Assembly: GCF_030646115.1 (NCBI RefSeq)
Contig: NZ_JAUSMX010000002.1
Span: forward strand, 434,001-498,000
Length of the DNA: 64,000 bases
Direction of reading: 5' to 3'
DNA from: Fluviicoccus sp.
GTDB taxonomy: Bacteria; Pseudomonadota; Gammaproteobacteria; Pseudomonadales; Moraxellaceae
A program made the translations under genes and the position numbers. The first letter of the stretch is position 1. Every line of letters begins with the position of its first letter. Below, piece by piece: positions 5,048-46,785 of this stretch. The notes under the pieces were generated by a model. The model was not told the DNA's origin and ran no database searches. It saw nothing but the letters and a program-made list of their open reading frames with translations.

Positions 5048-5887
5048 ATGCATCCCATTCCCTCCATTCAGCAAGCCGTCTGGCAGGCGGCCGACGAACT
5101 GATGTCGCAAGGCCAGCGCCCCACGGTCGCCAGTGTCCGTGAAATCACCCGTCGCGGCAGCGCCGGCACCATCAACGATGCCCTGAAAGTCTGGTGGGAG
5201 AATCTGGCCGAACGGCTGAGCAATCGCATTCCGCAACCCGAAGTTCCCGAACCGGTGGTTGAACTGACCCGGCAATTATGGGAACGGGCTCTGGAACACG
5301 GTGAAAAGGCCTTTGAGCAGTTGCGTACCGATGCCTTGGAACAGGTACGAGTCGCGGGTGAAGACCGTCACGACGCCCTCTCCGCCCTGGAGCAATCCGG
5401 CCTTCGTTATCAGGAACTGGAGCAACGCTATGCGGCGCTGGAAGCCGGCGAACGGGACATGCTGGCGCGGTTGTCCAGCGAAACCGCCTTGCGGCAGGAG
5501 CTGGAAGTCCGGCTGGAAAGCCGACAGCAGGCGTTCAATGAACTGGATCAGGCGCGCGGCCAGTTGGAAAAAGAGCTGGCGTTACTGGCAGCGCAATACC
5601 GGAATGTGGAGTTGGAACAGCAGCGTCAGTCAGACTCCCTGACCCGGCAGCTGACGGAACAGCGGGAACATTACGAAGCCGTGCTGCGCATGCAGCAGCA
5701 AGGTCTGGAAGACAGTGAAGGCCGATTGGCGCTGACGGAAATGCAACTGATGGAGACCCAGACCCTGCTGCGTCTGGAACAGCAACGGCTGGCGTCACTG
5801 CAGGAAGAGAATACGCGGCTTAAAATCGAATCAAGGCATCCATTGTCCAAACGCGACAACCTGAAGGCGCGGTTGCGGCGGGTCTAG
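5048..5887 (+). CDS. KfrA-type N-terminal DNA-binding, coiled-coil protein
   Basis: 279 residues. The first ~60 residues (IQQAVWQAADELMSQGQRPT..VREITRRGSAGTINDALKVWW) match the KfrA_N helix-turn-helix domain, best known from KfrA, an autoregulated DNA-binding protein of plasmids such as RK2. Residues from about 85 to 265 are rich in Glu, Gln, Arg and Leu with heptad-like spacing, predicting a long coiled coil. The C-terminus is basic (RDNLKARLRRV). Chromosomal homologues exist in Pseudomonas-like bacteria, where their role is not well defined; nucleoid organisation or transcription control is plausible. It lies 80 bases after ubiG, and converges on murB with a 7-base gap. ATG 5048 is preferred over an upstream in-frame start at 4991 because the domain begins here. 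Confidence 0.75.
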   Translation: MHPIPSIQQAVWQAADELMSQGQRPTVASVREITRRGSAGTINDALKVWWENLAERLSNRIPQPEVPEPVVELTRQLWERALEHGEKAFEQLRTDALEQVRVAGEDRHDALSALEQSGLRYQELEQRYAALEAGERDMLARLSSETALRQELEVRLESRQQAFNELDQARGQLEKELALLAAQYRNVELEQQRQSDSLTRQLTEQREHYEAVLRMQQQGLEDSEGRLALTEMQLMETQTLLRLEQQRLASLQEENTRLKIESRHPLSKRDNLKARLRRV

Positions 5888-44018: not shown

Positions 44019-44444
44019 TTAGCCGTTGTTATTGTTATTATTGTTGTTATTATTGTTATTGTTGTTCTGGCGCTTCTGCTCCCGGGAGGCCCCGGACTCC
44101 CCGGGCAGAGTCAGCAACAATCCCGCCGATCCCAGACGCACCAGACTGCCATTACGACTGTACGCCGCTTCATCCAGCGCCGAAATTTTCCGGCCATCGC
44201 ACCACAACAAGCGCACCTCCTTTGCCCCGACCAAACGGAAACTGGTGGCCACGCCCCCGCCCGGCGTATGGCAGGAAACCTGACCCTTGCGGAAAATGGC
44301 GTAAACCTTGCGCCCGGATTGCGCCAGAAACCAGTTCACCAGCCACGCTTCGTGCTTTACCCGCTCCGGACCATCCGGCATGCGCGTGGCGTTCAGGAAG
44401 CACTCCACGGTATAAGCAATCTTTTCAGTTTCACCGGGATTCAT
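44019..44444 (-). CDS. Poly-asparagine-tailed protein, possible RiPP precursor
   Basis: 141 residues. Residues 1 to about 118 form a folded-looking region (MNPGETEKIAYTVECFLNA..., with a Cys and a CHTPGGG block), then GASREQKRQ, 14 consecutive Asn and a final Gly. The Asn run is encoded by mixed AAC (8) and AAT (6) codons. The gene overlaps the radical SAM gene by 4 bases (ATGA) and is last in the operon. I do not recognise a family. It may be the substrate of the radical SAM enzyme with the Asn tail as the modified part, or an accessory protein. Function is unproven. Confidence 0.65.
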   Translation of the reverse strand: MNPGETEKIAYTVECFLNATRMPDGPERVKHEAWLVNWFLAQSGRKVYAIFRKGQVSCHTPGGGVATSFRLVGAKEVRLLWCDGRKISALDEAAYSRNGSLVRLGSAGLLLTLPGESGASREQKRQNNNNNNNNNNNNNNG

Positions 44445-46276
44445 GACAAGGCTCCGGAACGCGGCAGATAAAAGAACTCCAGATTCTGGAACGGCAGATT
44501 GATGGCCTGGATATGGTAGAAAGCGTTGTTTTTCTGCTTCTGATAATGATAGTCCCGCAAGTAGCCGGTGGTGAAAAACAGGTTGTTCAGCACCCCCTTT
44601 TGGTAATGTCTGGCATGCAGGGCCAGCAAACCGGATAAATCCGCCATCACATAATCCGGCCCCAGCAAATCGCTGCTTTCCAGAAAATCGCTGTACAGCT
44701 GCCAGGTGAAGACATGGGCCTGCTTGCTGCGTTGCTCATCGCCATAAACCACCGGCGTGTCACGCAGCAGTTGCAGATAGAGCGTGTTGCGCACGGGCTC
44801 GTCACAATTCTGCCGCCACAGGCTGCGCGGGAGATGCACCACTACCCTGTCCCCTTCAGTCAGGGTATGCCACACCGATTGTGTCTTCAATAACTGCGAC
44901 TGCAACGGAATCACTTCCTCGTTCACCTGCAACGTAAAAGCTTGATCGCTGTACAAGGCCTGCAACAACGGGTCGTCGTCAATCAACGCCTGCAAGGCAT
45001 GCTGCTCCGGATTCAGATCGTTCGGCAGCAACAGGGCCCGGGGCGGCGCTTCCGGCTCCTGCACCACCAAGGCGGGATGCATGTCGCGTGTGTAGAGGCG
45101 GGCGAAGGCCTGCTGGTCGTCAGGCTCATCGGCCGGGAAAGACTTCGGGTTGTCGGCGTACATCGCCTTTTGCAGGTCACAGGTGTAGGACTTGCCCTGG
45201 CGGGTCTGGTGTTTGACGACGGGGCAGCCGCTGTGGCACAGCGACAAATGCCCGCAGCCGCTGCAATCACTGTCCATGCCATGGGTTTGATGGATCTGGC
45301 GGATTTTGCGCGCGCCGTTATCGAGAATATCCTCGATGCTGTCCTGAAAGATATTGCCGTACCGGAATTCCTCAATGCCCTGCCCGCGCACGCAGGAATA
45401 CACCGCACCATCGCTTTGCAGCAGGTAAAAACGTTCGCCGCAGTTATAGGCGTTGGTGCAGTAGCTGGGCGTGAATTCGTCGAACCAGTTGCGGCGCAGG
45501 CCTTCCTCCAGCTCGGTGCCGCTGAACTCAGCCTTGAGGGCTTCGTACAGGGCTAACTGATCGTCGCGGGTGGCGGGCGTCAGCACAGCGTCGCCCCGGT
45601 CGGCATCGTTCAGTTCGGAGGCAAACGCAAACATCAGGTTGAACTGGTTCATGTCAAAACCCAGTTCACGATGGATAAACCAGATGTCGCGGATCAAGGC
45701 GGGGATGTCCTGCAGGTGTTCCTGGCAGATCGTGGCGGAGATTTTCTTGCCGTGCGGGTATCGCCCCAGCAGGCGGATGTTGTCCAGCGTCCGTTGCAGC
45801 CAATCGCCACCGCTGCGGGTGGTGCGGTACTGCGCATGCATGGCCAGAGGCAGGTCGATGCTGGCGCTGACTGATACCTTGTGCCGGTCCAGCAGATCGT
45901 AAAGGCTGGCGAACTTGTAGAGATTGGTCTTGATGTGCGGTGCGGTCTTGCGATGACCCAGCGCCGAAATGTCATCAAAATGCGTCAGGTAATGGCGGCG
46001 AATGGTGGTGAACAACGCCTCCAGCACCACCGGCGGCAAGGTGGTGACCTCGCCGCCGTGCAGGGAGACGTTGAACGCCAGCACTCCGGACTGGCGCAGG
46101 GCGTCCAGCGCTACGCGCAAGGTTTCCACGGCGCGGCCCGCGTCCTTTTTCAGGGCGGCGGTGGTGGTTTGTTCACCCAGATAGCAGTAACGGCAACTGA
46201 GGTTGCAGCACAGGGTGGGCGCATACAGCAGGTGGATGTTACGGGTGAACTCCGGGGGAGCAACGGGAATTTTCAT
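44441..46276 (-). CDS. Radical SAM/SPASM protein, peptide-maturase type
   Basis: 611 residues. The radical SAM cluster motif is CX3CX2C at Cys24, Cys28, Cys31 (LCCNLSCRYCYLGE). A SPASM-like C-terminal cluster region follows (SDGAVYSCVRGQG, YGNIFQDSIEDIL, CSGCGHLSLCHSGCP, CDLQKAMYADN), which binds additional 4Fe-4S clusters. About 220 further residues after it have no recognised domain. SPASM proteins mostly modify peptides or proteins. It overlaps both neighbours by 4 bases, so the three genes are translated together. Confidence 0.85.
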   Translation of the reverse strand: MKIPVAPPEFTRNIHLLYAPTLCCNLSCRYCYLGEQTTTAALKKDAGRAVETLRVALDALRQSGVLAFNVSLHGGEVTTLPPVVLEALFTTIRRHYLTHFDDISALGHRKTAPHIKTNLYKFASLYDLLDRHKVSVSASIDLPLAMHAQYRTTRSGGDWLQRTLDNIRLLGRYPHGKKISATICQEHLQDIPALIRDIWFIHRELGFDMNQFNLMFAFASELNDADRGDAVLTPATRDDQLALYEALKAEFSGTELEEGLRRNWFDEFTPSYCTNAYNCGERFYLLQSDGAVYSCVRGQGIEEFRYGNIFQDSIEDILDNGARKIRQIHQTHGMDSDCSGCGHLSLCHSGCPVVKHQTRQGKSYTCDLQKAMYADNPKSFPADEPDDQQAFARLYTRDMHPALVVQEPEAPPRALLLPNDLNPEQHALQALIDDDPLLQALYSDQAFTLQVNEEVIPLQSQLLKTQSVWHTLTEGDRVVVHLPRSLWRQNCDEPVRNTLYLQLLRDTPVVYGDEQRSKQAHVFTWQLYSDFLESSDLLGPDYVMADLSGLLALHARHYQKGVLNNLFFTTGYLRDYHYQKQKNNAFYHIQAINLPFQNLEFFYLPRSGALS

Positions 46277-46785
46277 GACCGTGTCCCCGCCCCGGTTGGG
46301 CGCGTAATCTCGGACGACCTCAGCCCGACCAGTTCTACAGCGGGATTGGCGGCCACCACTTTTTCCAGGATGCGCAGCTTCACCTTGTCGAACTTGGCCT
46401 GCTTGTTGCGGGCAATCTTGTCCGGCTTGCGGGCGTTGGTGGGGAAGTCGTCCTGCGACAGGATCAAGGGCATTTCACCCTCTTCCCGGATTTCCAGTCG
46501 TCCCGGTGCGGACAGGCCCAGTTGCGAGATATTGGCGTAGTAGAGTACCCGGTTGCCGCAGATCAGGTAACGCGGCCCCAGCAGCAGCTGGTTCGCGGTC
46601 GGCCAGATGCGGATCAGGTAAACCAGCAGGATGAGGCCGCACACCACTCCCGCCGGGGCGCTCAGATACAGGAAAACCAGCCCGGCAACCAGCAGCCCGA
46701 TGATGATGCGCCGTTGCTGGCCGGGGGTGAAGCTGACCGATTGGCGGTGGCGGTATTTGAAGATCGAGTATCGCGATTTATCCAT
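46273..46785 (-). CDS. Two-helix membrane protein of the radical SAM operon
   Basis: 170 residues. Two membrane helices close together (IIIGLLVAGLVFLYLSAPAGVVCGLILLVYLIRIW), then a soluble C-terminal part of about 100 residues. Strong ribosome site GGGAGG before ATG 46785. It is the first gene of the three-gene operon; its role (membrane tether, export or sensing) is unknown. I do not recognise the family. Confidence 0.7.
   Translation of the reverse strand: MDKSRYSIFKYRHRQSVSFTPGQQRRIIIGLLVAGLVFLYLSAPAGVVCGLILLVYLIRIWPTANQLLLGPRYLICGNRVLYYANISQLGLSAPGRLEIREEGEMPLILSQDDFPTNARKPDKIARNKQAKFDKVKLRILEKVVAANPAVELVGLRSSEITRPTGAGTRS

Follow-up and report, generated by a model that had tools for sequence, protein, structure and literature searches.

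What does a radical SAM/SPASM enzyme act upon when it is encoded next to a protein that ends in a run of asparagines? The question is raised by three genes on the minus strand of the window, i.e. the whole stretch of 64,000 nucleotides that was analysed. In transcription order, these encode a membrane protein of 170 residues (46273..46785) with a hydrophobic hairpin and a conserved soluble part, the radical SAM/SPASM enzyme of 611 residues (44441..46276) with CxxxCxYC and SPASM motifs, and a partner protein of 141 residues (44019..44444), the presumed substrate, which ends in ...EQKRQ followed by 14 Asn and one Gly. The codons of this Asn14-Gly tail, with AAC and AAT intermixed, occupy positions 44019..44066 of the minus strand together with the stop codon. 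Both gene junctions read TCATGA on the plus strand and thereby form two ATGA start/stop overlaps, and a Shine-Dalgarno-like GGGAGG lies directly 5' of the membrane protein gene. Coordinates and junctions bear out the initial annotation, which had described a three-gene radical SAM operon with two ATGA overlaps and an end of 14 Asn plus Gly. A divergent neighbour upstream of the operon (window:47143-48759) encodes a protein of 538 residues that, judged by eye, looks like a phospholipase C-type domain of a secreted enzyme, with repeats resembling those of lectins.

The radical SAM motif of the enzyme, C24-N-L-S-C28-R-Y-C31, contains the CxxxCxxC signature of radical SAM/SPASM enzymes, and C24, C28, and C31 were invariant in 29 aligned sequences. 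The complete SPASM motif (CX9-15GX4C - gap - CX2CX5CX3C - gap - C) was also present, with C279, G290, C295, C338, C341, C347, C351, and C366 invariant in the same sequences. Pfam SPASM matched with 24.9 bits (cut-off 21.5). Among the best 25 of 45 NCBIfam matches, the SPASM domain model TIGR04085 was the sole one to pass its cut-off (45.9 versus 27), whereas the named families, among them DynA, GrrM, PapB, CbpB, and HxsB, all stayed far below theirs. The top NCBIfam match was the anaerobic sulfatase maturase TIGR03942, with 74 bits against a cut-off of 349. An AlphaFold model of the enzyme (pLDDT 88) matched the folds of solved radical SAM enzymes in the PDB, namely anSME (Z 28.6), ChlB (26.3), the sactipeptide-biosynthesis enzyme 5why (25.5), and SuiB (23.4), and the core thus resembles maturases that modify peptides or proteins. 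Asp277, the catalytic Asp of anSMEcpe that follows the SPASM Cys, aligned to Val/His296 of the enzyme family, so that formylglycine chemistry is unlikely for these proteins. The PDB matches covered only residues from about 12 to 380. A family-specific C-terminal domain of about 200 residues (about 420 to 611) follows, with the motif VYGDE.R.K..H ... R.YHY.K...NAFYH.Q..NLPF and a tight cluster of invariant residues (R574, Y576, H577, Y578, K580, N584, Y587, H588, N593, L594, P595, F596, and E600). A Pfam search with this domain returned zero matches. It is the best candidate for recognition of the Asn tail.

Genomes of the same family and the same order as the source yielded only generic SPASM enzymes and no relative of the operon, the distribution of which is thus patchy. 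Plasmid and phage collections contributed one full-length relative (33% over 96%, E = 7e-98), carried by a Mu-like prophage of Campylobacter coli and identical to the enzyme of phage CAM-P21. An IMG/VR search with an alignment of two enzymes gave 11 Campylobacter-type loci; over their full length, the enzymes of the Campylobacter phages shared 33-34% identity with the enzyme of the window. About 45 further full-length relatives emerged when a genome collection was searched with a seven-sequence alignment. Most of them came from Betaproteobacteria (62-74% identity), and others came from Geobacter-type bacteria (58-63%) from Clostridia, many of these from ruminant guts (40-45%), and from Campylobacter (32-33%). 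In the enzyme tree, phage, Clostridia, and betaproteobacterial sequences each fell on one side of a well-supported branch. The phage profile phrog_1802 was rejected as a route to further family members because it matched generic SPASM enzymes over the core only.

Enzyme and operon belong to a coherent and seemingly undescribed family of radical enzymes. The initial annotation had known of no named family with this combination of genes, and searches of open-licence papers gave no description of a radical SAM enzyme with a polyasparagine or Asn-rich partner, nor of this system with a tail fibre or prophage. Phages of the CP220/CPt10 kind carry 11-12 radical SAM proteins, and the passages found in that paper describe no such system of enzyme and Asn tail (PMC2853527). 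A non-peptide function of close relatives, which would have spoken against the earlier reading, is known for none of them.

Outside Campylobacter, 45 loci were collected, and the DNA downstream of the enzyme gene was readable in 41. In all 41, the gene directly 3' of the enzyme gene carried an Asn tract. Forty of these tails were intact and consisted of 6-27 Asn plus one last residue (37 Gly, 3 Ala); in L055, a frameshift followed after 13 Asn. The four remaining loci ended too soon after the enzyme (L064, L078, and L084) or on a contig that stops in ...FDGGSSNN (L085). The Geobacter-class loci L144-L150, found later by a different route, all possessed the tail. L150 (50% identity) is clearly a new locus, and some of the others look like loci of the earlier collection. 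In L062, L071, and L085, an assembly gap or the end of a contig coincided exactly with the Asn tract. Short-read assemblies therefore probably break or misassemble such tails, and some may be missed in draft genomes.

In pattern searches, on which the genome-wide counts of tails rest, exactly one (AAY)5-Gly/Ala-stop was present in each of the 24 operon-bearing genomes outside Campylobacter, and comparison with the locus coordinates placed it at the operon in all 24. A search of 299 Pseudomonadota genomes for (AAY)6-Gly/Ala-stop gave the operon of the window as its sole stop-terminated match; three other matches to the pattern read TGG, i.e. Trp instead of a stop, and the complete pattern was absent from the 298 other sampled genomes. 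In an equally large draw of such genomes, 57 others encoded related radical SAM/SPASM proteins. Thus, the presence of a SPASM enzyme does not in general entail a tail of this sort. Because the pattern was found in 0 of 298 other genomes and the combination of enzyme and Asn tail recurs in dozens of distant genomes, the operon lies far beyond chance.

Over the 40 intact tails, Asn was encoded by 325 AAC and 191 AAT codons, which were intermixed. The longest run of the same codon did not exceed six in 38 of the 40, the exceptions being L053 (11) and L057 (9). Scrambled codons of this kind argue that selection acts on the protein and keeps the tract as Asn. Slippage may contribute to changes in tail length. 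The residue preceding the tract, often Ser, Gly, or Cys among the relatives and Gln in the window, was not conserved; Cys occurred there in a few relatives only, and the tails were pure Asn except for the last residue. Taking bacteria and phages together, the tails comprised between 2 and 27 Asn and ended in G, A, Y, F, S, or N, variation that tells little about the chemistry. In one Clostridial partner (L079:9742-10107), the Gly/Ser/Cys-rich sequence GCGSSCSGCST directly preceded the Asn tract; other Clostridia had Gly/Ser-rich linkers.

The Mu-like phages of Campylobacter offered a comparison between loci with and without the enzyme, which is carried within the tail-fibre module. The gene order was tail fibre - 211-residue protein - radical SAM - DUF1353 in its presence and tail fibre - 168-residue protein - DUF1353 in its absence. 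Fibres of both forms were 87-100% identical to the query at their N termini and differed at their C termini. In all 16 Campylobacter-type loci with the enzyme, the fibre ended in NNNNY, GNNF, GNNS, or NNNNN, with at least eight distinct ends, whereas none of 19 matched fibres from loci without the enzyme ended in an Asn run (that of L129 ends in a single Asn). Counting distinct fibre ends only, the ratio was 8/8 with the enzyme versus 0/8 without it (Fisher p = 1.6e-4). The locus counts include close relatives and are therefore not independent, against which the test on distinct ends and the spread over several phyla provide a guard. The check proposed in the initial annotation, whether Asn tails are conserved beside this type of SPASM enzyme, accordingly had a positive outcome: 41/41 in bacteria, 16/16 in Campylobacter-type phages, and 0/19 in phages without the enzyme. 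The fibres contain PF12571, the N-terminal domain of tail-collar fibres. Given this position of the domain and known fibre architecture, the Asn run would be expected at the distal end of the fibre, which faces the receptor.

DUF1353 was considered as a part of the phage module and rejected, such a gene being present both with and without the enzyme. Some Campylobacter phages had extra small genes between the radical SAM gene and DUF1353 (L044:9709-10230 and L039:9737-10120). The viral contigs L131 and L189 (Campylobacter sp. US33a), apparently one genome, contained both forms of the fibre module, which suggests exchange of the module between prophages. A divergent phage relative of the enzyme, L181 (34% identity, full length), adjoined tail-fibre-like genes, and no clean Asn run was seen nearby. 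In this metagenomic phage (L181:3358-7815, on a contig of 96.8 kb), the nearest candidate is an open reading frame of 34 residues at 5280, just upstream, which ends in NCTNNSNH, and a neighbouring protein of 172 residues has a Cys-rich end (CALCASCSGCPC). L181 may use a variant of the substrate or be a genuine departure from the pattern.

The proteins that bear the tails had little else in common. In the AlphaFold model of the 141-residue partner, residues 1-105 were folded and were followed by a disordered linker and the disordered Asn tail; the fold is a helix-helix-beta domain with pLDDT block means of 85-97 over residues 1-100. A PDB search with this model gave no clear fold match (best Z 4.2), and Pfam and NCBIfam searches with the partner returned nothing above cut-off. 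Partners from Pseudomonadota and Geobacter-type bacteria formed one family (36-56% identity to the partner of the window) with few invariant columns outside the tail (D24, R28, E32, S88, and G105). The region around CHTPGGG, named in the initial annotation as an alternative target, was not conserved in this family, and that proposal was dropped. Clostridial partners differed in sequence, with at most weak profile similarity to window-type partners over 40 columns, and the phage fibres looked unrelated to both bacterial kinds. The sole evident feature common to all three was the Asn tail at the extreme C terminus.

The 170-residue membrane protein contains one hydrophobic stretch (residues 25-65) with room for a two-helix hairpin, and its soluble part is marked by the motif RYLICG...YY.N...KFPTNARK..KI..NK..KF.KV. 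Alignment of 16 operons, from Pseudomonadota and from Geobacter-type bacteria, showed it to be conserved; nothing exceeded the cut-offs in Pfam and NCBIfam searches. In Clostridia, the gene upstream of the enzyme encodes a BspA-type leucine-rich-repeat protein (by Pfam in two loci, with similar C termini in others), and phage loci have neither protein. The earlier suggestion that the membrane protein is a partner of the system was not supported: conserved though it is in the Pseudomonadota and Geobacter-type operons, it is replaced in Clostridia and absent from the phage loci. For these reasons, we regard it as a lineage-specific accessory.

The reading that we favour, with a probability of roughly 0.77, is that the 611-residue radical SAM/SPASM maturase modifies the C-terminal Asn tail of its partner in place. 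Judged by genomic association, the tail is very probably the substrate of the enzyme, because it is the sole feature common to otherwise unlike partners. The earlier proposal that the tail is the target gained support from its co-occurrence with the enzyme in bacteria and phages and from the enzyme-free phage control. The folded N-terminal domain of the 141-residue partner would present the flexible Asn tail, as would the tail fibre together with the co-encoded 211-residue protein in phages, and the unique C-terminal domain of the enzyme is the best candidate to recognize it. Cleavage of SAM would take place at the CxxxCxYC cluster and yield a 5'-deoxyadenosyl radical, which would take hydrogen from Asn residues; the SPASM auxiliary clusters could then accept an electron, resulting in an oxidative change of the tract. 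The Asn beta-carbon is the site that we prefer for this putative chemistry, with epimerisation as its main chemical rival. The modified tail may form a surface or tip structure, which in phages would be the distal end of the receptor-binding fibre. In bacteria, it would be the terminus of a small cellular protein, which the 170-residue protein may keep close to the membrane.

If the enzyme instead epimerised L-Asn to D-Asn along the tract, in the manner of proteusin epimerases, the tail would become structured or resistant to proteases. Radical SAM epimerases often act on Asn in proteusins, and a homopolymeric track of variable length would suit an enzyme that works iteratively. However, the likeness of the enzyme model to the epimerase EpeE (Z 15.6) was weaker than that to anSME, ChlB, or SuiB, and the two to five Asn of some fibres would not suffice to form a helix. 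We consider this chemistry unlikely, though credible; since it, too, takes the tail as the target, it shares part of its probability with the favoured reading. Alternatively, the tail could be only a handle, a follower tag by which the enzyme recognizes its partner, and the modification could fall on another residue, such as one in the folded domain or in the linker that leads into the tract. A homopolymeric and length-tolerant tract behaves as binding tags can, Ser, Gly, or Cys often precedes it, and in some fibres the run is down to two Asn. Bacterial partners and phage fibres have no other residue evidently in common, however, and neither the scarcity of invariant partner columns outside the tail nor the lack of conservation of the residue before the tract (Gln in the window) points to a target beside it, which makes the handle improbable.

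Chances are slim that the Asn tail is the core peptide of a classical secreted RiPP that, once its leader is removed, leaves the cell as a bioactive product. A precursor-plus-maturase gene pair does have the arrangement of a RiPP locus (in arrangement only), and many RiPP maturases were among the best family matches of the enzyme. On the other hand, the partner is a folded domain of 100 residues, and in phages a tail of this kind forms the end of a structural protein of the virion. Because no protease or transporter is evident in the operon and the flanking genes differ between relatives, with no conserved neighbour seen beyond the operon, modification of a protein in place is favoured over a secreted peptide, although a protease encoded elsewhere is conceivable. 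Least credible of all, and close to negligible, is a sulfatase-type or cofactor-type maturase beside an unrelated microsatellite. Although the best NCBIfam match and the best fold match both point to anaerobic sulfatase maturation, this function was rejected on the low TIGR03942 score and the replacement of the catalytic Asp by Val/His. A microsatellite artefact was rejected on the scrambled codons, the position of the tract at the extreme C terminus, and its near-perfect co-occurrence with the enzyme. A role in anti-phage defence was likewise rejected, the similarity to viperin being weak and confined to 60 residues.

Going beyond the operon itself, it seems rather probable that modification of the Asn tail constitutes a new protein modification, in which C-terminal Asn runs are altered on a small cell protein in several bacterial lineages and on the distal tips of phage receptor-binding fibres, where the system would act as an exchangeable module of the tip. 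Should the tail indeed be modified, this would be a new post-translational modification of Asn and a possible phage route to fibre-tip chemistry beyond the 20 amino acids. An Asn run just before the stop codon would then provide a simple genome-mining handle for further cases.

Among known systems, the phage radical SAM profile phrog_1802 gave nearly full-length matches (E = 1e-44 for the enzyme of the window and 6e-142 for the Campylobacter phage enzyme), and among the matches listed, only the enzyme of the window reached the C-terminal part of the profile. The profile is, however, generic over the radical SAM/SPASM core (58 of 299 genomes match) and carries no functional description. Maturases of the ranthipeptide and sactipeptide type (PapB, SuiB, SkfB, PDB 5why/5wgg) share the core fold (Z 22-26). 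Unlike their substrates, the Asn tracts contain no Cys for thioethers, so that the Cys residues expected in a core region are missing, and with a radical SAM core that begins at about residue 12, the enzyme has no space for an RRE domain at its N terminus. Cyclophane/daropeptide-type maturases (GrrM/OscB TIGR04261, DynA NF041298, and AmcB NF041718) were among the better NCBIfam matches (E = 9e-20 to 6e-15), and some radical SAM/SPASM maturases of this type are known to join other residues to the beta-carbon of Asn. Their scores lay far below the cut-offs, and the bacterial tails differ in being homopolymeric, C-terminal, and devoid of an aromatic partner residue. The anaerobic sulfatase maturase anSME (TIGR03942; PDB 4k36-4k39) resembles the enzyme in its radical SAM plus SPASM core (Z 28.6, rmsd 3.4 over 336 residues) and in having a folded protein, not a small peptide, as its substrate. 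It differs from it at 18% identity, in having Asp277 where the enzyme of the window has Val/His, in lacking the extra C-terminal domain of about 200 residues, and in its partner, which is an Asn-tailed protein in the window and not a sulfatase. Small secreted peptides are what radical SAM/SPASM enzymes are chiefly known for; the family described here is linked to folded proteins that bear a homopolymeric Asn tail, the receptor-binding fibres of phages among them.
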